A stretch of 46,152 nucleotides of DNA from Candidatus Woesearchaeota archaeon (GTDB lineage Archaea; Nanobdellota; Nanobdellia; Woesearchaeales; 21-14-0-10-32-9). Below, in pieces: positions 6,375 through 27,080 of the stretch. The notes below the pieces were generated by a model, which worked only from the letters and a program-made list of their open reading frames with translations, ran no database searches and was not told the DNA's origin. Position numbers and translations under genes: made by a program. Position 1 is the first letter of the stretch. Each line of letters starts with the position of its first letter. The stretch covers positions 1 to 46,152 of the forward strand of contig JAIPHP010000009.1 of assembly GCA_021735165.1 (NCBI GenBank), given 5' to 3'.

Positions 6375-6707
6375 AAATGCTACTCGTACACTGACTTTTT
6401 CAGCAACCTTGCTAATGAAAGCAACATCAAAATAATTGAATCGCTAAAACAAGGACCTAAAAACGTTACAACAATAAGCAACGAAACAAAAATTGAGCAA
6501 TCCGCAACAAGTCACCGTCTAAAAAAATTAGTTAGTTGCAATGTCTTAAATGTAGAAAGAAAAGGAAAAGAAAGAATATACTCATTAAACAAAGAAACAA
6601 TAATTCCCATACTAAAGTTAGTAGATGAACACGTACATAAACAATGCAAGACTTGTTGGAAAAGAGACCAACGCAAAGTAAAAAGACCTTTAAAAATAAA
6701 ACTATAA
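6372..6707 (+). CDS. ArsR-family winged-helix regulator, likely controls suf
   Basis: A 111-residue DNA-binding repressor. The ArsR winged helix runs from about residue 10 to 75: the helix-turn-helix lies in NVTTISNETKIEQSATSHRLKKL (31-53) and the beta wing in NVERKGKERIYSL. Cysteines at 3, 56, 92 and 95 could sense metal, Fe-S or redox state; Cys92 and Cys95 form a CxxC near the C-terminus, followed by a basic tail. It is first in the suf operon, 2 bp before sufB, a place often held by SufR-like regulators. A perfect palindrome overlaps its start codon. That it binds an Fe-S cluster is my inference. Confidence 0.8.
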   Translation: MKCYSYTDFFSNLANESNIKIIESLKQGPKNVTTISNETKIEQSATSHRLKKLVSCNVLNVERKGKERIYSLNKETIIPILKLVDEHVHKQCKTCWKRDQRKVKRPLKIKL

Positions 6708-6709
6708 AA

Positions 6710-9700
6710 ATGGAAATAAGTAGACAACTATACGACAATAGAGACGAAACAAAATACATATTCAAAGTACCGATAGGCATAAACGAAGAAGTAGTTCGGC
6801 AAATATCAAAATACAAAAAAGAGCCTGAATGGATGCTTAAAAAAAGATTACAAGCACTCAAAATATTTCAGGAAAAACAAGTACCAACATGGGGGCCTGA
6901 TCTAAGCAAACTTGACTTAAACAAAATATGCTTCTACGCAGTAGCAGACGCAAAATACAATTCAACAAAATGGGAAGATGTTCCTGAAAACATAAAGCAA
7001 ACCTTTGAAAGACTAGGAATACCTGAAGCTGAAAGAAAGGCACTTGCAGGAGCAGGAGCGCAATTCGATTCTCAAACAATATACCACAACCTAAAAGAAG
7101 ACCTAAAGAAAAAAGGAGTCATCTTTGAAGACATGCACGTAGCAGTAGAAAAATATCCAGAGCTCGTAAAAAAATACTTTATGACACAATGCGTCTCCCC
7201 AGCTCTGCACAAATATGCAGCTTTGCACGGAGCAGTATGGAGCGGAGGAACATTCATCTACGTACCAAAAGGAGTTAAAGTAAACCAACCACTTCAAGCA
7301 TATTTTAGAATGAACGAATCCGGAATGGGACAATTCGAACACACACTCATAATAGTAGAAGAAAACGCTGAATGCCACTACATAGAAGGATGCTTTACAA
7401 AAGGAACACTAATAATAACAGACGCAGGATACAAAAAAATAGAGGACGTAACAGAAAAAGACAAAGTTTTAACTCATGAAGGAGAATACAGAAAAGTAAA
7501 AGATCTTCAAAAATACAAACACGAAGGAGAACTCTATGAAATAGAATACTATGGGGACTCAACACAAAAAATAACAGCAACACCAGAACACCCCTTTCTC
7601 TTTGCAAAAAGAAAAACACAAAATGACAGAAACAAAGAGTTCGAATTAGAATGGAACATACCAAAATACATGGAAAAAAAAGATTATTTAGCAATGCCAA
7701 TAAATCAAGTGACAAAAACAAAAAAAGAAAGAACATTTGAAGTAAAAAAATGGGACCCTGAGAAAAAATTCAAAACAAGCAAAGTAAAAGTAAAAGCGAC
7801 ACCTGAATTTTACAGATTAATAGGATATTATTTATCAGAAGGAAGCACCATGAAAGAGCATTACTTGTGTTTTGACTTTAACAAAAAAGAAAGAACATAC
7901 ATAGATGACGTAAAAAAATGCCTAAAAAAAGTATTCAAAGTAGAAGCATACGAAGTACACCACAAAAAAAATAATGGAACGTCCGTAAGAGTAAACTCAA
8001 CGGAACTGGCAAGAATATTCAAACAATTCGGAGATAGAAACTATAACAAACAAGTACCGCCGTGGATGCTTACAGAAAGCCATGAAAACCAAAAACAAAT
8101 AATTCTTGGATGGTTCAGAGGAGATGGGAACTACTACAACAAAAAACATGAATCAGGAACTAAAGAAGCATTCAGAATTAACACAACATCCAAAACGATG
8201 ACAAGGCAAATACGAGATATACTACTAAGACAAGGAATATTTGCATTCATAAACAAAAGAAACAGAAAAAAAGAAAACAGAAGAACCATTTATACACTAG
8301 GAATAACAGGAGAACACATGGTAAAATTCGGAAACCTAGTCGGAATAAAAATAAATAAAACAATAAACAACCACAAAAGAGCATCAATGTTTGGAATTGA
8401 TAAAAAATTCGCCTATGTACCCATAAAGAAAATTACAAAAAAGAAAACCAAAAACAAAGAAGTATACAATTTCGGAGTAGAAGGACACGAAACATACACC
8501 GCCGGAAGCGTAATAGTGCATAACTGCTCAGCTCCAAAATACAAATCTCCTTCAATACATGCAGGCTGCGTAGAAGTAATAGTACATAAAGGAGCAAGAA
8601 TGCGTTACAGTTCAGTAGAAAACTGGTCAAGAAACACATACAACCTAAACACAAAAAGAGCAAACGTATACGAAGAAGGAATAATGGAATGGGTTTCTGG
8701 AAATCTCGGTTGTCTTGCCGGAGACACAAAAATATCAACAAACCCAAAGGGACCGACAAAAATAATGGAACTAAAACCTGGAGATTATGTATATGCACTA
8801 AATGAAAAAACTAACAAATTAGAAAAGGCAAAAATCAAACAAAAAATTTACAGCGGCGATAAAAAAACATACAGACTAAAAGCCGGAGGAAGAGAAATAG
8901 AAGCGACCGGAAACCATCCCTTCCTTGCACTAACACATAAAAAAAACAACCCGAATCACAAAAAAGGATTTTTCAGAACAGAATGGAAAAAGCTTGAAGA
9001 TTTAAAAAAAGGAGATTTAATAGCTATAGCCAAATCTCTGCCAGTAGAAGGAATACCCTATAAACTTCCATCATACAACTACAACAAACAAGTAAAAAGC
9101 AAAAACCAATACACCAAGGAGTTCTCCATGAGCATAAACCATTTATACAAAAAAATAAAACAACCAAAAGAAACAAATGAAGACTTAATGTGGCTTTTGG
9201 GAATTCTTCTAGGAGATGGACATATATATCTAAACAAAAAAAATGCCAAGATAAATATAGCAATACCTGAAAAGGATTCGTTGAGAAAAGAGGTAAAGAC
9301 TGCTGTAAAAAAATTATTTCATATTGACGTAAAATATGAAAAAGACAGATTCCTTGTTATAAATTCCAGACCCTTAGCTGATCTAATAATCAAAATTGGT
9401 TTTTCAGGAAAAGCAGACACAAAAAAAATTCCGCCATGGGTTCACAAACTACCAAAAAAACAAAAAATGGCTTTGCTAGCTGGATACATTGACTCTGACG
9501 GACACATAGGCGAAGGAGGCGCATACATAACAAGCATAAACAAAGAAATACTAGAAGACATCCAAGAAATTGCACTATCTTGTGGAATAGGATTTTCAAA
9601 TGTCTTTGTACACGGCAAAAAAAGGAAAACAAAAATCCTTGGAATAGATTGCAATGCAAACGACTCATACAGAATACTTCTAAATGGAAAAAATGTAAAA

Positions 9701-10444
9701 GAAATCCCTATAAAAAACAAAGAAAAGAAAGAAAAACTAAAAATTGTAAAGACAAAAAGAAACTATGTAAGCAGTAAAGGAAAAAACTTCAGAAGCAAAA
9801 CAACCGATGAAATTGGATTCACTACAATAAAAGACATAATCCCTACGGGAATAAAACCAACCTTCGACATAGAAGTTGAAAAACATCATAATTTTGTAGC
9901 AGAAGGGATGATTGTTCACAATAGCGGAATAACAATGCTCTATCCAGCATCACTCCTACTAGGAAGAAAATCTCAAGGACACCATGTAACTATAGCATAC
10001 GCAGGACCAGAGCAAAACCAAGATACAGGAGCAAAAATATACCACTTAGCGCCAGACACAACATCAACAGTAAAATCAAAATCAATAAGCAAAGATGGAG
10101 GAATAACTGCATACAGAGGAATAGTAGAAATAAAAAAAGGAGCAACAAATGCAAAATGCTCCGTACACTGTGATGCAATGATGTTTGACAACAAATCTCA
10201 ATCAAACACATACCCAACAATAAAAGTAGAAGAGAAAGACGCAGATATGGTGCACGAAGCAACAATAGGAAAAATATCAGAAGATCAAATATTCTACTTA
10301 ATGAGCCGCGGACTTTCAGAAGAAGACGCATTAAAACTAATAGTCTCAGGATTCATAGAACCTCTAATGAAAGAACTCCCGCTCGAATACGCAATCGAAA
10401 TGAACAAACTGATACAAATGGAAATGGAGGGAAGTCTAGGTTGA
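6710..10444 (+). CDS. sufB: SufB Fe-S scaffold protein with two inteins
   Basis: SufB is the main scaffold of the SufBCD complex that builds Fe-S clusters. The 1244-residue precursor contains two in-frame inteins; the spliced protein would be 462 residues, normal for SufB. Extein 1 is residues 1-227, ending YIEG; extein 2 is 606-667, starting CSAPKY and ending GNLG; extein 3 is 1072-1244, starting SGITMLYPAS and ending with the family's SRGLSEEDA helix region. Intein residues are Cys at +1 and His-Asn at each end, followed by Cys606 and Ser1072, so splicing looks intact. The ATG at 6710 is 2 bp after the arsR stop; the frame upstream of it lies inside arsR. sufD overlaps its stop. Confidence 0.95.
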   Translation: MEISRQLYDNRDETKYIFKVPIGINEEVVRQISKYKKEPEWMLKKRLQALKIFQEKQVPTWGPDLSKLDLNKICFYAVADAKYNSTKWEDVPENIKQTFERLGIPEAERKALAGAGAQFDSQTIYHNLKEDLKKKGVIFEDMHVAVEKYPELVKKYFMTQCVSPALHKYAALHGAVWSGGTFIYVPKGVKVNQPLQAYFRMNESGMGQFEHTLIIVEENAECHYIEGCFTKGTLIITDAGYKKIEDVTEKDKVLTHEGEYRKVKDLQKYKHEGELYEIEYYGDSTQKITATPEHPFLFAKRKTQNDRNKEFELEWNIPKYMEKKDYLAMPINQVTKTKKERTFEVKKWDPEKKFKTSKVKVKATPEFYRLIGYYLSEGSTMKEHYLCFDFNKKERTYIDDVKKCLKKVFKVEAYEVHHKKNNGTSVRVNSTELARIFKQFGDRNYNKQVPPWMLTESHENQKQIILGWFRGDGNYYNKKHESGTKEAFRINTTSKTMTRQIRDILLRQGIFAFINKRNRKKENRRTIYTLGITGEHMVKFGNLVGIKINKTINNHKRASMFGIDKKFAYVPIKKITKKKTKNKEVYNFGVEGHETYTAGSVIVHNCSAPKYKSPSIHAGCVEVIVHKGARMRYSSVENWSRNTYNLNTKRANVYEEGIMEWVSGNLGCLAGDTKISTNPKGPTKIMELKPGDYVYALNEKTNKLEKAKIKQKIYSGDKKTYRLKAGGREIEATGNHPFLALTHKKNNPNHKKGFFRTEWKKLEDLKKGDLIAIAKSLPVEGIPYKLPSYNYNKQVKSKNQYTKEFSMSINHLYKKIKQPKETNEDLMWLLGILLGDGHIYLNKKNAKINIAIPEKDSLRKEVKTAVKKLFHIDVKYEKDRFLVINSRPLADLIIKIGFSGKADTKKIPPWVHKLPKKQKMALLAGYIDSDGHIGEGGAYITSINKEILEDIQEIALSCGIGFSNVFVHGKKRKTKILGIDCNANDSYRILLNGKNVKEIPIKNKEKKEKLKIVKTKRNYVSSKGKNFRSKTTDEIGFTTIKDIIPTGIKPTFDIEVEKHHNFVAEGMIVHNSGITMLYPASLLLGRKSQGHHVTIAYAGPEQNQDTGAKIYHLAPDTTSTVKSKSISKDGGITAYRGIVEIKKGATNAKCSVHCDAMMFDNKSQSNTYPTIKVEEKDADMVHEATIGKISEDQIFYLMSRGLSEEDALKLIVSGFIEPLMKELPLEYAIEMNKLIQMEMEGSLG
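7391..8524 (+). mobile_element. SufB intein 1 with LAGLIDADG endonuclease
   Basis: 378 residues (228-605 of SufB). It begins CFTKGTLIITDAG (block A, Cys1), has the TPEHPF block B His, and ends GSVIVHN before Cys+1. Between the splicing blocks lie two LAGLIDADG-type motifs, LIGYYLSEG and ILGWFRGDG, each with an acidic residue, so the homing endonuclease may be active. It sits at EG^CSAP, a highly conserved site of SufB. Family features are well established; activity is inferred. Confidence 0.9.
8711..9922 (+). mobile_element. SufB intein 2 with LAGLIDADG endonuclease
   Basis: 404 residues (668-1071 of SufB). It begins CLAGDTKISTN (Cys1), has GNHPFLAL as block B, two LAGLIDADG motifs (LLGILLGDG and LLAGYIDSDG), and ends GMIVHN before Ser+1. 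It is inserted at GNLG^S, only 62 extein residues after intein 1. The two inteins differ in sequence, so they look like independent arrivals rather than a duplication. Confidence 0.9.
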
Positions 10445-16602: not shown

Positions 16603-17040
16603 ATGAAAGACGCATATGAAAAACTGGATAAAAAACTCAAAATTAGAACAATGAGAAAAATAGTGAAAGAAACATACACAAAACAAGTAAGTGAAGAAGG
16701 GACGCCCTTAGAACATCTGGTTTACGGAGACAAACTCTTAGAAAAATACAGAAAAGAAAAAGAACCTGAAAAATTGTGGGATGCAGCAACACACTACATG
16801 ACGATTCTAGCACCACAAAAACTGTATGCACCAGAAAAAATACCAAAAGTGCTCAGAGAACAATCAGAAAAAGAAAAGTACGCATTAAGCCAAGAAAGTG
16901 CGAAAGAAAAAGCAATCACAAGAATGTACAGAGCTGCAGAAACCCTTCTTAAAACTAAAGTGACAGATTTTACTGTAATAAGCGAAATAAGTACAATGAT
17001 GAAATTTATCAAAGAACAATACAAAGGCGAAACAAAATGA
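16603..17040 (+). CDS. helical hypothetical protein of the receiver cluster
   Basis: A 145-residue, highly charged, all-helical protein (many K/E), without signal peptide or membrane segment. I chose the ATG at 16603, which has AGGTTTGA upstream; a TTG at 16579 falls inside the preceding small ORF. Its end overlaps the next receiver gene by 4 bp (ATGA), so the two are translationally coupled. Segments such as KLWDAATHYMTIL and TRMYRAAETLL suggest paired helices of a TPR-like kind, but the repeat pattern is not clear. Function unknown; its neighbours suggest a partner of the receiver protein. Confidence 0.65.
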   Translation: MKDAYEKLDKKLKIRTMRKIVKETYTKQVSEEGTPLEHLVYGDKLLEKYRKEKEPEKLWDAATHYMTILAPQKLYAPEKIPKVLREQSEKEKYALSQESAKEKAITRMYRAAETLLKTKVTDFTVISEISTMMKFIKEQYKGETK

Positions 17041-17567
17041 CCATAGAACAAAAACTTACGGACAAGGACATCAAAAAAATATTAGTGGTAGATGACAGAG
17101 AAGAAAACACACAAGCAGCAAAAGAATATTTCCAAACAATACCAATAAAAACAGATTACGCATCAAGCGCGCAAGAAGCAATAACAAAAATGAAAGAAAA
17201 CTACAAAGCTGAAACAAAATACGATCTAATCATCACAGATCTTGAAATGGAAACAAAAAATGCGGGACTGGATGTAGTTAAAGAAGCATTAAACCAAACA
17301 ATATACGTAACAATAGCAACGGGAATGAACTACGACCAACCAGAAGAACACGGACACGGACCAAGTACAACAATAATGCCAACAAAAGAGTCCATTAAAG
17401 GAAAAAAGAACAACCCAGAAGTCTGGGAACAAGCAATGAAAATAACGCTTGACTACATCGCAAGTCCGGAAATACAAAGAAGCTACAACTCAGCAAAAAG
17501 ATACAAAAAATACACAGGAAAAGAATCAGAACTATTCAAAGAAATAATGCTGAAACTATACAAATAA
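17037..17567 (+). CDS. stand-alone receiver-domain protein 1
   Basis: 176 residues. Residues 12-115 fit a response-regulator receiver: IKKILVVDD (Asp19, Asp20), phosphoacceptor Asp68 in LIITDLEM, Thr95 in TIATG and a possible Lys117. The tail lacks an output domain and instead has a helix with PEVWEQA (127-133), also found as PELWKQA in receiver 2. The linker EEHGHGPS is His-rich. No histidine kinase is in the window, so the phosphodonor is unknown. It is homologous to receiver 2 (shared YASS, KYD-ITD, PE-W-QA, AS). Confidence 0.8.
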   Translation: MTIEQKLTDKDIKKILVVDDREENTQAAKEYFQTIPIKTDYASSAQEAITKMKENYKAETKYDLIITDLEMETKNAGLDVVKEALNQTIYVTIATGMNYDQPEEHGHGPSTTIMPTKESIKGKKNNPEVWEQAMKITLDYIASPEIQRSYNSAKRYKKYTGKESELFKEIMLKLYK

Positions 17568-17580
17568 AAGGTGAAACAAA

Positions 17581-17997
17581 ATGGAATTAACAGACTTATT
17601 AACTAAAACAGTAGAAAAAATGGAAACAAAAGAAGAAGAAATACTAAAGGACGTTTTTGAAATGAGCAAAATGTATGTAGACGCAGAATTAAAATCATAC
17701 GTTATGCACATAACAACAGATCAAAGTAAATATAAAACTGTTGTAGGTCAAGACGGCAGAATTTATGTTGATTCTGACAAAGATGAACTGCACTATATCA
17801 CAGGACCACAAAGTCAAAGAAAAATAGATATGAAGCACAGATACATAACATCAAAGGAAAAGTCAATGAGTGCACTTTCAAGATACTCTGATTATCTAGA
17901 AGTATTAGAACAGTATCAAACAAAACTAAAGAGTGAACTAGACAAGAAAGAAGAAATTGTAAAGACATACTTACAAAAATTCCAAGACAAAGAATAG
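17581..17997 (+). CDS. hypothetical helical protein of the receiver cluster
   Basis: A 138-residue protein, unrecognised. The first ~50 and last ~45 residues are amphipathic helices, and the C-terminal one (YLEVLEQYQTKLKSELDKKEEIVKTYL, read as heptads) is a probable coiled coil. Between them lies a short strand-rich part (YKTVVGQDGRIYVDSDKDELHYI). No signal peptide or membrane segment. The leader AAGGTGAAACAAA before the ATG is identical to that of two later genes in the cluster. Confidence 0.65.
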   Translation: MELTDLLTKTVEKMETKEEEILKDVFEMSKMYVDAELKSYVMHITTDQSKYKTVVGQDGRIYVDSDKDELHYITGPQSQRKIDMKHRYITSKEKSMSALSRYSDYLEVLEQYQTKLKSELDKKEEIVKTYLQKFQDKE

Positions 17998-18033
17998 AAA
18001 TCAAAAACAGAAGAAAAAAAAAGGTGAAACAAA

Positions 18034-18609
18034 ATGGAATTACCCAAGACAAGCATTGAAGAAACAATATCAAAACTTGAAATAAAAAAAATACTGGTTG
18101 TAGATGACACACCAGAATTTATAGAAACTGCAAAGAAGGTTTTTTCAGAATATCAAGGAATATTATTTGAATATGCTTCAAGTGAAGAACAAGCAAAACG
18201 CAAAATAAAAACAGAATACGACTCTGGAAAAAAATATGATTATGTTTTAACAGACATGGTGCTCGAGAAAGAAGACAGCGGTAAAAAAATACTACAATAC
18301 GCGTCAGATAACTTAACTTTTGGAGCGGTAATAACGAGAACATTTCATGAAGCGGCAAAAGAAGATGAACAAGGATACAAAACAGCATTAATAACACCAC
18401 TCACACATTCAAAAGGCGGATTTGACCCGATAGCATGCAATACATACTATAAAGATATATTTAGATATTCAAAAAACCAACCAGAACTATGGAAACAAGC
18501 ACTAGAATGGGGTCTTTACAGAGCAAGCACAGAAACACCAAAAGAATGGATGAAAATGTTCAATGACGAATACAAAAAAATAATCAAACAACAAGAGGAT
18601 ATAAAATGA
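18034..18609 (+). CDS. stand-alone receiver-domain protein 2
   Basis: 191 residues. The receiver core spans about 17-130: IKKILVVDD (Asp24, Asp25), phosphoacceptor Asp74 in YVLTDM, Thr101 in VITRT and possible Lys127. The usual short beta4-alpha4 region is enlarged (HEAAKEDEQGYKTALITPLTHSKGG). The C-terminal helix PELWKQA (150-156) parallels receiver 1. No output domain. The start follows AAGGTGAAACAAA; the end overlaps the next gene by 4 bp (ATGA). Confidence 0.8.
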   Translation: MELPKTSIEETISKLEIKKILVVDDTPEFIETAKKVFSEYQGILFEYASSEEQAKRKIKTEYDSGKKYDYVLTDMVLEKEDSGKKILQYASDNLTFGAVITRTFHEAAKEDEQGYKTALITPLTHSKGGFDPIACNTYYKDIFRYSKNQPELWKQALEWGLYRASTETPKEWMKMFNDEYKKIIKQQEDIK

Positions 18610-19256
18610 ATAAATTTCCGGAAAAAACAAGAAGAGTAAAAAACAGTGAACTAATAGAAACAAGCGGCATGTACACAATACCTTATTTTACAGGAATTGA
18701 TACATTAAAAAACAAATTTATAGATCCTGATAAATTAAGAAAAGAGATTCCTTTAGCAGAGAAATTTTTACTAACAGTGCCAGTGGTAGATTTTATTATT
18801 TCAAAAGATTACAAAGCAATGTTGGTAGCTCCAATAGTTCATCATAGTCAATCTTATGATTATTATTATAGTGATATTTTAACGTTCTTCATAAATCAGG
18901 ACTGCATATTCGGAAAAAAAGGAGAAGTTGTTGGTGGCAATCACAAATACATTACTTTTGATAGACTATCAAATCCTGAAATAAGAATGAACATAGAAAC
19001 CATACACTCAAGGTACTTTATAGCAAACATAGAAAACGAAAAAATTATCGGATTACTCAAGGAAGAAAAATTGTATAACATAGAAACATTAGATATTTTA
19101 GCAAATCAGTTACTTCCAGAAGAGAAAACTCCTAAAATAGTGACTGATAAGGCGAGCGAGTTAATAAAAAAATATGCGGCAGATAGAATTTATAATTTTA
19201 CAAGAAAAGTAGGATTTGAAGATAAAGAATTATTACCTATAAAATACAAAAGGTGA
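18606..19256 (+). CDS. hypothetical protein of the receiver cluster
   Basis: 216 residues, soluble, alpha/beta, not recognised. A central segment (YKAMLVAPIVHHSQSYDYYYSDILTFF) is rich in His and Tyr and slightly resembles the enlarged loop of receiver 2 (YKTALITPLTHS), which may be chance. The ATG overlaps the receiver 2 stop by 4 bp, so the two are translationally coupled. The C-terminal part has a Lys-rich helix. Function unknown. Confidence 0.6.
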   Translation: MNKFPEKTRRVKNSELIETSGMYTIPYFTGIDTLKNKFIDPDKLRKEIPLAEKFLLTVPVVDFIISKDYKAMLVAPIVHHSQSYDYYYSDILTFFINQDCIFGKKGEVVGGNHKYITFDRLSNPEIRMNIETIHSRYFIANIENEKIIGLLKEEKLYNIETLDILANQLLPEEKTPKIVTDKASELIKKYAADRIYNFTRKVGFEDKELLPIKYKR

Positions 19257-19262
19257 AACAAA

Positions 19263-21050
19263 ATGAACATAGACGATATTGTAAAAAAGATGAGCAAGAA
19301 AAAACAACTATCATTGCTAGATAAGATAAAAGATAAAGAACTTGCAAACGAAATAGCAAACGAAATAGCAAACGAAGCAAAATACCAAATTAGCGACAAT
19401 GAAATAAATCTAGTGGTAGAAAACACATACATTAACAAGGACGAATTTGTAAAAAAATACGGACTTGAAAATAATACAAGAATAAAAGAACTTAACAAAG
19501 ACATTTACAAAAGTTTTCTTGTTGAAAAAACAAACATTGATGAAGCAATAAAATTTGGAAAAGAATATTTAATTGAAACAGACTATATAGAAATAACAAA
19601 CAAAGTATTATCAGAAATCTCAACAACGCACGAGATAGATGCCAATGGAGCTCTTGGATGGCTTGTTTGGCCAGCCAAATTATCCGTAAAAGGAGAAAGG
19701 GTTCTTGAGATTTCAACAAAAGTACTTGAGGATAAAGAATTAGCAAAACAATACATGAATACAATCCTCGATAAAGGATTTAGATTCCCAGAAAATGCGT
19801 TGAAAATTTTTGAAAAAACAGAACTAGAAAACATGGTACTTGAAAAATTATCAAACGGAGAATCACCTAGATCGTCTAAATATCTAAAAGACATAATAGA
19901 TATTGAAAAAAACAAAGAAACTTTAATAGATATTGTGATTAAAAAAATAGATAATTTTCAAACATATAATACGAGATACGTTGGAAGTAACCAAGGCGCA
20001 TGGTTTAAAGAAGAACCCGTATATAATATGACAACAAACAAAGGTAAGACAGCAGAACTAATATTTAACTTGTACAAGGATTTAGATCTGAAAAAACAAA
20101 CAGAGTTTGAAGAAATAATGTACAAACACATCAAAAAATCACTAGACAAAGAAGGAAAACTCCCACAAGACGGATTTAAACATAATTATGGGTCTCCAGA
20201 AACGGAACCAAAAAGACTTGATGCAAGAAAAATCCACGAATTAATCTCGGAAGAACATTCAAGTGAAATTTTAAAACAATTGTACAAATCAAAACTCGAA
20301 ACAGATGAAGAAACTTACGAAATAAGAGAAGCCATAAGTTCGGATGATGCATTCAAAGTACTAATCGAACAATTAGAAAATCCGCACATATATAAAATGG
20401 ACTTGTTGCTTAGAGAAAAACACAATTTAGTGCATCAGCAAAAAAAAGAATCTTCATACATAAAAGAATTTGATACAAAATCAAAAGAAATATCTATGAA
20501 TATATGTGAGAACGCCATAGAAAAAGGCAGGTATGACAAGGTATCAAAATTCATACAAAACCACTACAAAGATAAGAAAGAATATTTTGACAAAAAAATT
20601 TTGGTTTCAAAAATTCAAAACAGCGAATATGATCTAAACGACCTAAAAAAAGCAGAATCAATATATGAAAAGAATCAAATTGAAGATTTAACCTTCAAGC
20701 TTTTCAAAAAAACCGCAGAAAAAGGCGTTAACGCAATAAGACTAGATAATTTAATAGAAGAATACAATATAGAAGGTCATGAAAAAGAAATTGGAACAAT
20801 ATTAATAGAAAATACACAACAAAAAAACTTCTTTGAAAACCTCACAAACTTAAACAGAGAATACAGAACTGGAATAAAACTCCTCGAAAAAACAGGAGAC
20901 ATAAACTTAATCAAGAAGTACATAAAAACAGCAACAACGCACGATATACTACAAGACGAATCAAGTAAGTACTTGTTTGAAATGGCAAAGAAATACGAAG
21001 TAAAAGAAAGTATTTCAATAATGCAAGAAATAGGATATCCAAATACCTAA
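19263..21050 (+). CDS. large helical hypothetical protein of the receiver cluster
   Basis: 595 residues, almost wholly helical, charged, with no signal peptide or membrane span. Recurrent pieces of about 30-40 residues containing L-KI/L-K, D-E-A and KKY motifs suggest an alpha-solenoid (HEAT- or TPR-like), but I cannot align clean repeats by eye. Residues 32-44 contain a short tandem of NEIANEIANEA from a 12-bp repeat (19345-19380). It follows the cluster's AAGGTGAAACAAA leader and closes the operon that starts at 15830. A scaffold or adaptor role is a guess from shape. Confidence 0.6.
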   Translation: MNIDDIVKKMSKKKQLSLLDKIKDKELANEIANEIANEAKYQISDNEINLVVENTYINKDEFVKKYGLENNTRIKELNKDIYKSFLVEKTNIDEAIKFGKEYLIETDYIEITNKVLSEISTTHEIDANGALGWLVWPAKLSVKGERVLEISTKVLEDKELAKQYMNTILDKGFRFPENALKIFEKTELENMVLEKLSNGESPRSSKYLKDIIDIEKNKETLIDIVIKKIDNFQTYNTRYVGSNQGAWFKEEPVYNMTTNKGKTAELIFNLYKDLDLKKQTEFEEIMYKHIKKSLDKEGKLPQDGFKHNYGSPETEPKRLDARKIHELISEEHSSEILKQLYKSKLETDEETYEIREAISSDDAFKVLIEQLENPHIYKMDLLLREKHNLVHQQKKESSYIKEFDTKSKEISMNICENAIEKGRYDKVSKFIQNHYKDKKEYFDKKILVSKIQNSEYDLNDLKKAESIYEKNQIEDLTFKLFKKTAEKGVNAIRLDNLIEEYNIEGHEKEIGTILIENTQQKNFFENLTNLNREYRTGIKLLEKTGDINLIKKYIKTATTHDILQDESSKYLFEMAKKYEVKESISIMQEIGYPNT

Positions 21051-21113
21051 ATATGTTATTATTAGAAAAATCATTTCAAAAAGTTTAAATACACAAATAC
21101 AAATAATTAATAC

Positions 21114-21518
21114 ATGATAAAAATCCTAATAGTAGAAGATAAAGAGCAATACTTAAAAACAATGACTTTTGTATTACAAAATCATTTCGCTGTAGATACA
21201 GCAGCAAGCCTGCAAACTGCTCTTAATAAAATCCAAAAAGAACATTATGACTTAATACTTCTTGATGCAATATTTCCTGAAAGAGACGGACGACCATTAG
21301 GCGACGGACATGGAAATTTATCTTCTAAAGATTTTAGGGGAAAAACAGTACTAGAACTTGCAAGAAGTAAAAAAATACCAGTAATAGGAATATCTTCAAA
21401 TCCAGAATATTACCAAAACGAGAATCTTGCATTGAATCTCCATAAAAGAGACATCGACCTAGTCGCACTTCCTAAAATAATAAATGAAATAGTTGAAAAA
21501 AATGTTCGTCCACAATGA
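21114..21518 (+). CDS. stand-alone receiver-domain protein 3
   Basis: A 134-residue single receiver: MIKILIVEDK (Glu8, Asp9), phosphoacceptor Asp51 in LILLDAIFPERDG, Ser94 in IGISS and a Lys in LPKIINEI near 121. The beta3-alpha3 loop is long (GRPLGDGHGNLSSKDFRG). It has its own promoter: AGTTTAAATACAC at about 21081-21093, 25 bp before the ATG, so it is leaderless. The next gene overlaps its end. Confidence 0.85.
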   Translation: MIKILIVEDKEQYLKTMTFVLQNHFAVDTAASLQTALNKIQKEHYDLILLDAIFPERDGRPLGDGHGNLSSKDFRGKTVLELARSKKIPVIGISSNPEYYQNENLALNLHKRDIDLVALPKIINEIVEKNVRPQ

Positions 21519-22065: not shown

Positions 22066-22109
22066 AGAAACTAGCACTAAATTTATAAATAAAAAATTTC
22101 AAAAATACA

Positions 22110-23057
22110 ATGATGCAAGAAAATAAAAACTGGAGATCTTTCATAAGAGAAACTTTTTTTGAAGGAGATAACCTCTCAGTAGCCAGATTTGAAACATTCA
22201 TACTCATAATAATAATCCTAAGCGTCTTAGCTGCTCTAATAGAAACAATACCTGGAATAAATCAACAATACTACAACGAATTCTACAATTTAGAATGGCT
22301 ATTTACAATAATATTCACAATAGAATACTTGCTTAGAACAATAACTGCAAAACAGCCATTAAAATACATATTCAGTTGGCAAGGATTCGTAGATTTAGTA
22401 GCAACACTCCCATTATATGTAAGACTAATATTCTCAGGAAAAGAATACTTGTCATTATTCAGATTACTAAGAATTGCAAGAATATTCTCAAGAATGGGAA
22501 GATTCACAAAATCAATGAAAAAAACAAAGTATTTTTACAAAAACATGGAATCCCACCTCGGAACACATGAACACATAGTAAAATACTTTAAAAGATCAAG
22601 GCTAAGCTATTTAATACAATACTTCTTTGGGATAATAATATTTATAGCCTCTTTAATTGAAATAGTATCCCAAGCAATCTCAACAGCGATAGGAATTCAA
22701 GGAACTTGGATAACAATAACAGCATACATAATATTTATACTGTCAACAATCCTAATAATTGTATTTGAAATAAAAGTAATTTATAGAAGATACGCTGTTA
22801 CGAATCACAGAGTGATAATGAACGAAGGCATATTACATGAAAACTTCAAAAGCACAACATACCATTATATAGCAGATACAGAATTACATCAAACGTTAAT
22901 AGATAAAATACTAGGGACAGGAACAATAGGTGTAAAAACAACCGGAAGTGAAACAGAAAACATAAATCTAGAAAAAATAAGACATCCAAATGAAATTAAA
23001 AAAGTGGTACAAGACGCAATAGTACACGCGCACAATTCACACCTAAAACATCAATAA
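22110..23057 (+). CDS. voltage-sensor domain fused to bacterial PH (bPH2) domain
   Basis: 315 residues. The first half is a four-helix voltage sensor: S1 28-46, S2 62-79 (Glu72), S3 91-108 (Asp95 in FVDLVATLP) and S4 115-132, with arginines at 118, 121, 124, 128 and 131 and Lys134, the regular spacing of Kv sensors. No pore helix or TVGYG filter follows. Instead two more membrane spans (about 167-187 and 200-222) lead into YRRYAVTNHRVIMNEG-I and GTGTIGV, the pattern of the DUF304/bPH2 domain. Sensor-only proteins such as Hv1 or Ci-VSP are the nearest idea; a voltage-controlled membrane protein without an ion pore is an inference. AATTTATAAAT about 25-30 bp upstream is the TATA box. Confidence 0.75.
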   Translation: MMQENKNWRSFIRETFFEGDNLSVARFETFILIIIILSVLAALIETIPGINQQYYNEFYNLEWLFTIIFTIEYLLRTITAKQPLKYIFSWQGFVDLVATLPLYVRLIFSGKEYLSLFRLLRIARIFSRMGRFTKSMKKTKYFYKNMESHLGTHEHIVKYFKRSRLSYLIQYFFGIIIFIASLIEIVSQAISTAIGIQGTWITITAYIIFILSTILIIVFEIKVIYRRYAVTNHRVIMNEGILHENFKSTTYHYIADTELHQTLIDKILGTGTIGVKTTGSETENINLEKIRHPNEIKKVVQDAIVHAHNSHLKHQ

Positions 23058-26601: not shown

Positions 26602-27080
26602 ATGTTAAAAGAAGGAACTAGAGCACCAGCATTCACATTAAAAGACCAAGATGGTAAAACACAAAAATTATCTGACTATAAAGGTAAGAAAATAATTCTT
26701 TACTTTTATCCTAAAGATAATACTCCTGGTTGCACTAAAGAAGCATGTGCATTTAATGATAATTTGGAAAAACTCAAAAAGAAAGCAGTACTCTTTGGAA
26801 TTAGCGCAGATAGTGTGGAAAGTCACAAAAAGTTTGCTAATAAGTTCGGTCTAAAATTTTCTTTGTTGTCAGACCCAGATAAAAAACTAATTTCTAAATA
26901 CAAAGCATATGGAAAAAAAAATACATGGGCAAAGAGTACATGGGAATTCATAGAGTAACATATATTATTGACGAAAAGGGCGTAATTCAAAAAAATTTTC
27001 CTAAAGTCAATCCTCAAGAACACGCAGAAGAAATATTAAAATATATTATTAATTGGCCTGATAAAAGCTCTCAATCTTGA
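26602..27080 (+). pseudogene. bcp: thioredoxin-dependent peroxiredoxin (Bcp/PrxQ), frame broken at a poly-A run
   Basis: Reduces peroxides. The first frame (26602-26958, 118 residues) has the Bcp core with peroxidatic Cys44 and resolving Cys49 (NTPGCTKEAC), then loses homology after KAYGKK. The expected C-terminus (KYMGKEYMGIHRVTYIIDEKG...) continues in another frame from 26922 to the TGA at 27080. The switch falls on nine A residues at 26913-26921; ten would restore one reading frame of 159 residues, a normal length. It may be a sequencing indel, a true mutation, or -1 slippage on the A run. Start: Shine-Dalgarno GAGGTGA. Redox partner: thioredoxin, with TrxB at 38.5 kb. Confidence 0.8.

Follow-up and report, generated by a model that had tools for sequence, protein, structure and literature searches.

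An archaeal protein predicted to join a Kv-type voltage sensor, without a pore, to a two-span bPH2 module

In voltage-sensor domains (VSDs), S4 moves past a charge-transfer centre, and Kv channels pass this movement through the S4-S5 linker to S5. The VSD is also found in proteins that have no K+ pore. In the eukaryotic VSPs it is followed by a PTEN-like enzyme, Hv1 and TMEM266 carry a VSD without a K+ pore, and in SLC9C1, the sperm Na+/H+ exchanger, the VSD comes after the transporter and before a cyclic nucleotide-binding domain. To our knowledge, these known pore-less voltage sensors (VSP, Hv1, TMEM266 and SLC9C1) are all eukaryotic. All four are treated in a 2024 review, according to which non-channel use of the VSD is known in VSP, TMEM266 and SLC9C1, and eubacteria and archaea have no Hv channels (PMC13095418).

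Membrane proteins of the bPH2 family (PF03703/DUF304), such as B. subtilis YdbS and E. faecalis DdE, have two N-terminal spans and a cytosolic PH-like domain. We know of no established biochemical activity or ligand for bPH2. Here we describe a gene from an uncultured archaeon, a member of the Woesearchaeota, that encodes a VSD and a bPH2 protein in one frame. The window that we analysed is a stretch of 46,152 nucleotides, and the gene has the following features.

22110-23057, + strand: VSD-bPH2 fusion ORF (P0001, 315 aa), uninterrupted from ATG to stop, with full-length homologues
22188-22523, + strand: Kv-type VSD, residues 27-138 (from Pfam, PDB relatives and hydropathy), with S1 at about 29-47, S2 at about 61-79, S3 at about 92-110 and S4 at about 114-136
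22449-22517, + strand: S4, with R118, R121, R124, S127-R128 and R131 invariant in three fusions and K134 not
22524-22604, + strand: cytosolic cationic linker, residues 139-165, within which the stand-alone bPH2 proteins start
22605-22784, + strand: bPH2 two-span hairpin, residues 166-225 (from hydropathy and charge counts), without P-loop or filter; TM5 at about 168-186, TM6 at about 201-219, a short loop between
22788-23000, + strand: bPH_2 (PF03703) PH-like domain, residues 227-297 (from Pfam), predicted to be cytosolic
22076-22097, + strand: putative promoter with an archaeal TATA-like box (TTTATAAATA), about 25 bases before the ATG

By sequence, the fusion is both a VSD protein and a bPH_2 protein. 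Pfam detects Ion_trans at residues 27-134 (E 3.8e-14, above the curated cut-off by a good margin), and the match spans profile positions 4-114 of 241, which correspond to S1-S4; the pore half is missing. The bPH_2 match at residues 227-297 (E 1.6e-9; 38.3 bits against a gathering score of 22) is preceded by two spans, as in membrane proteins of PF03703. Both domains are detected in 3/3 fusion homologues. The PDB relatives of the VSD half are S1-S4 of Kv4.2 and of other Kv channels (E 1e-10 for the sequence alone), and the match to Kv4.2 improves to E 9e-14 in a PDB sequence search with a three-homologue profile. This half has the four spans, conserved charge-transfer centre and periodic S4 arginines of a VSD.

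The hydropathy profile runs from S1-S3 through a cationic S4 and a cytosolic stretch to two spans with a short loop between them, and ends in a cytosolic tail that holds the PH-like domain. Hydropathy and charge counts place the end of S4 and the N terminus of bPH2 both on the cytosolic side, in agreement with the charged loops. An earlier note on this DNA had proposed such a protein, a VSD joined to a two-span bPH2 unit in place of a pore; the reading frame holds, and the Pfam matches and a search for filter motifs agree with the proposed make-up. Of the checks that the note suggested, structure prediction, run in AlphaFold on two sequences only, gave a low-confidence model with a mean pLDDT of 46 and a pTM of 0.28.

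Like Kv channels and prokaryotic 6-TM K+ channels (PF00520; for example, KvAP and Kv4.2), the fusion has F-x-x-E in S2, an Asp in S3 and an Arg-rich S4. In contrast to them, it has bPH2 instead of S5-P-S6 and the filter, and its S4 spacing is shifted by one residue. A filter motif, either G[FYL]G or T-x-[GS]-[FYL]-G, is absent from all three fusion proteins and present in 13/13 of the best-scoring VSD-matching channel homologues. The third homologue has only about three residues between the two predicted spans after S4 (by hydropathy), which is too few for a pore helix and a filter. A pore region between the modules, the finding that the earlier note had named as its refutation, is therefore not present, and we rejected assignment to the Kv or other voltage-gated cation channels on the profile match, which stops at position 114 of 241, and the missing filter motif.

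The bPH2 half resembles the stand-alone woesearchaeal bPH2 proteins, which align to the fusion over their full length from residue ~144; unlike membrane bPH2 proteins, the fusion has a full voltage sensor in front. As in Ci-VSP, a VSD without a pore precedes a module that faces the membrane from the cytosol. In VSP this output module is a PTEN-like enzyme; in the fusion it is PH-like in fold, brings two spans of its own and has no known catalytic site. No PTEN-like domain with a C-x5-R site was found, and there was no phosphatase among the Pfam matches to E 10, so membership in the VSPs was rejected. In layout the fusion resembles Ci-VSP, most likely with a non-catalytic output. SLC9C1 also couples a VSD to a module other than a P-loop pore, but in the fusion the VSD comes before its partner, bPH2.

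The sensor residues of the VSD are in place. S2 carries F69-x-x-E72 and an outer E62, S3 carries D95, and the S4 charges are R118, R121, R124, R128, R131 and K134; the residue numbers given in the earlier note for S4, E72 and D95 are all correct. E62, F69, E72, R76, D95 and the five S4 arginines are identical in 3/3 fusions, and E62, F69, E72, R76, D95, R121 and R128 stay invariant when six 6-TM channels are added to the alignment. The S4 charges are spaced 3-3-4-3-3 if K134 is included, and the arginine spacing of 3-3-4-3 is common to all three fusions, unlike most 6-TM channels, which have a charge at every third position over the same stretch. Of the six S4 charges proposed earlier, the five arginines are thus conserved, but K134 is His in the third homologue. 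Loss of these charges in homologues had been named beforehand as a second ground for refutation; the arginines are kept, and an intact sensor, as judged from the identical charge-transfer centre and S4 arginines, is what the comparison supports. Between the sister-species copies dN is 0.16 and dS 1.15 (dS near saturation), and dN is well below dS in each of the VSD, hairpin and PH parts, which indicates that the VSD and bPH2 halves are both under purifying selection.

The closest homologue is in a sister species of the genus (Woesearchaeota MAG Tobar13m-G34, locus L031), which encodes the fusion in one frame at 75% identity; a stop inside the match is the normal terminator of the sister-species gene. 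A search of 353 genomes of the order returned one further full-length fusion, at 34% identity, from another family (G491). With 3/353 genomes, the fusion is rare and patchy in the order. No further full-length copy turned up among the 11 genomes of its own family or the 10 of the other family, or in overlapping samples drawn from the class (378 genomes) and the phylum (371 genomes). We also scanned 84,980 genomes for exact peptide words of one protein, a method that reaches close relatives only. Among plasmids and phages, tblastn gave partial matches, none covering 80% of the query and the annotated ones being ion transporters, and a scan of viral contigs with alignment A4 gave no match. Targeted searches of an open-access library of papers found no description of the fusion architecture; the earlier note likewise knew of none.

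The genome is a draft assembly of 31 contigs, which might raise the concern that an assembly or gene-prediction artefact joins two genes. However, the fusion recurs without interruption in other genomes, at 75% and 34% identity, and the genes flanking the third copy are arranged as in a congener. These homologues rule out the artefact, which we consider exceedingly improbable.

Conservation is uneven along the protein. The VSDs of the two distant fusions are identical at 50/112 residues, against 46/151 in the rest of the protein, which makes the VSD the better conserved half. The hairpin (TM5-TM6) is the least conserved region, with 11/49 residues identical to the third homologue. The linker is the most conserved stretch between the sister species (23/27 identical), but only 6/27 of its residues are shared with the third homologue.

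The front half is closest to woesearchaeal 6-TM channels from the same order (265-269 aa), which have GFGD or GFGE filters and end in a zinc-ribbon-like C-terminal tail. The back half is closest to stand-alone bPH2 proteins of ~170-200 aa, whose N termini align at fusion residues ~143-146, directly past S4 (alignment A1). Because the front is channel-like and the back matches bPH2 proteins over their whole length, the protein is best described as a channel apparently truncated after S4 and joined to a complete bPH2 protein. In trees, each half and its relatives form a small clade (VSD 100/100; bPH2 90/92), which is compatible with one fusion event or two; the common S4 arginine spacing favours a single event.

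The host genome encodes one other, distant bPH2 protein (L067:2924-3409 on contig C10, 162 aa, very divergent) and no second VSD. In relatives within the family, open frames of ~770-820 aa each contain between two and four bPH2 matches (L033, L032, L034 and L039/L040); these frames are predicted to represent a multi-bPH2 family in archaea related to the host. Sister genera encode proteins of 130-171 aa that resemble Ion_trans weakly (L063, L064, L065 and L066), and a recombinase or integrase gene lies near this ORF in L063, L064 and L066. We rejected these short ORFs as Kv-type sensors, as they have no Arg-rich Kv-type S4.

In the sister species, the fusion gene lies between sufC and the superoxide dismutase (SOD) gene, with the peroxiredoxin gene next. 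The window has the same gene order, with insertions on both sides of the fusion gene. One of these differences is a block of ~8 kb between sufC and the fusion gene that is absent from the sister-species locus and thus reflects insertion or loss; it includes a cluster of three response-regulator receiver ORFs and long unannotated ORFs (17037-21518), with no histidine kinase visible there. SufB in the window (6644-10444) is 1266 aa long and has two intein-like insertions (Intein_splicing in two stretches, LAGLIDADG and Hint), and the SufB of the sister species (L031:528-1913) is intein-free at 462 aa. The peroxiredoxin frame in the window (26602-27060) breaks after about residue 106 and similarity resumes in another frame, which is a frameshift or a sequencing error at an A-rich run; the sister copy is intact.

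In other genera of the family, the suf-SOD region lacks the fusion gene. The third copy adjoins an isochorismatase-family gene and a [NiFe]-hydrogenase operon. A congener of its host (G117) has glycolytic genes and the hydrogenase with no fusion gene between them, and the same order on the contig of the third copy indicates a genuine chromosomal locus. Gene neighbours therefore differ between lineages; partners are not conserved and none is indicated. Because suf-SOD loci exist without the gene and the third copy lies by a hydrogenase operon, we rejected an operon link to suf, SOD or peroxiredoxin and treat the gene as a putative accessory insertion with its own promoter. Upstream of the gene, the window has the motif GCACTAAATTTATAAATAAAAAA, which also precedes the copy of the sister species, and the third homologue has a similar TATA-like box. 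The motif common to the sister copies makes the gene look independently transcribed and probably leaderless, although in AT-rich DNA this is modest evidence.

How might such a protein work? The reading that we hold to be somewhat probable on balance is a pore-less voltage-sensing protein in which S4 motion controls the bPH2 module. An archaeal Kv S1-S4 sensor, cut right after S4, would continue into an entire YdbS-like bPH2 protein with two spans. If the membrane potential changed, S4 would shift relative to the charge-transfer centre of E62, F69, E72 and D95. S4 would lead through the short cationic cytosolic linker into the bPH2 hairpin, at the place of the Kv S4-S5 linker and S5, so its motion would pull on the hairpin and may alter how the PH-like domain contacts the membrane, oligomerises or binds partners. 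The protein would then most likely act as a regulator or scaffold on the inner face of the membrane, neither conducting ions nor catalysing a reaction. We infer the voltage movement of S4, its transmission and its bPH2 target. Voltage sensing is supported by nine sensor residues that are identical between fusions sharing 50/112 VSD residues, and the poor conservation of linker and hairpin in the third homologue (6/27 and 11/49) argues against a fine-tuned mechanical coupler.

The same conservation bears on whether voltage sensing has been lost and the VSD is a mere membrane anchor or dimerisation part of a bPH2 protein. The rarity of the fusion in the order, the one-residue shift of the S4 spacing and the loss of K134 would fit a vestigial sensor, but nine identical sensor residues at 34% overall identity go beyond the need of an anchor, and the VSD is better conserved than the rest; we find this reading rather doubtful. 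A functional VSD could instead conduct protons, as the earlier note had considered, or a gating-pore current, with bPH2 as an anchor or dimerisation module. The sensor is intact, and in Hv1 a free VSD is able to conduct protons. However, the selectivity aspartate of Hv1 (D112, position 1.51 in S1) is replaced by Ser38 in 3/3 fusions, placed at 1.51 by our alignment of S1 of the fusion to the S1 motif of Hv1. Ser occupies position 1.51 in Kv1.2 (S176) and Asp in Hv1 (PMC5065317). Ser38 is thus the Kv residue and disfavours Hv1-like conduction; likewise, the relatives in the PDB are Kv channels, and the best 60 of 102 include no Hv1. The fusion shares with Hv1 and TMEM266 a VSD without a K+ pore but differs in Ser at 1.51, in its Kv-like sequence, in the added bPH2 and in being archaeal. 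We rejected membership in Hv1, and the earlier suggestion of proton conduction is weakened to the point of being very unlikely.

A bolder alternative keeps the sensor and makes the bPH2 half the conductor: hairpins would oligomerise into a transport path gated by the VSD and would replace S5-S6 functionally. By hydropathy, TM5-TM6 lie at the exact place of S5-S6 with the same topology. We know of no bPH2 pore that has been demonstrated directly. Xu et al. proposed that membrane DUF304 proteins are transporters or pores with PHb domains for oligomerisation, and soluble PHb proteins form rings (PMC2817789). Export of the leaderless bacteriocin enterocin DD14 requires the PHb2 proteins DdE and DdF, which are YdbS/YdbT-like (PMC8657885). 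Against such a path stand the very short hairpin loop of the third homologue and the low conservation of the hairpin, which leave it unlikely, if the least so of the alternatives. Its fuller form, a prokaryotic voltage-controlled assembly other than a P-loop channel, in which bPH2 hairpins and PH-like domains make up a ring or pore gated by the sensor, is rather unlikely; if true, it would place a PH-type fold under direct control of the membrane potential. Our first choice over this assembly is the voltage-controlled scaffold or regulator.

If the preferred reading of a voltage-controlled bPH2 module is true, the fusion would be a Kv-derived sensor with a non-channel module in an archaeon, suggesting that VSDs are reused as modular voltage switches in prokaryotes too. 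At 315 residues, the protein is small enough for expression and patching, and it would supply the poorly understood bPH2 family with a testable input.
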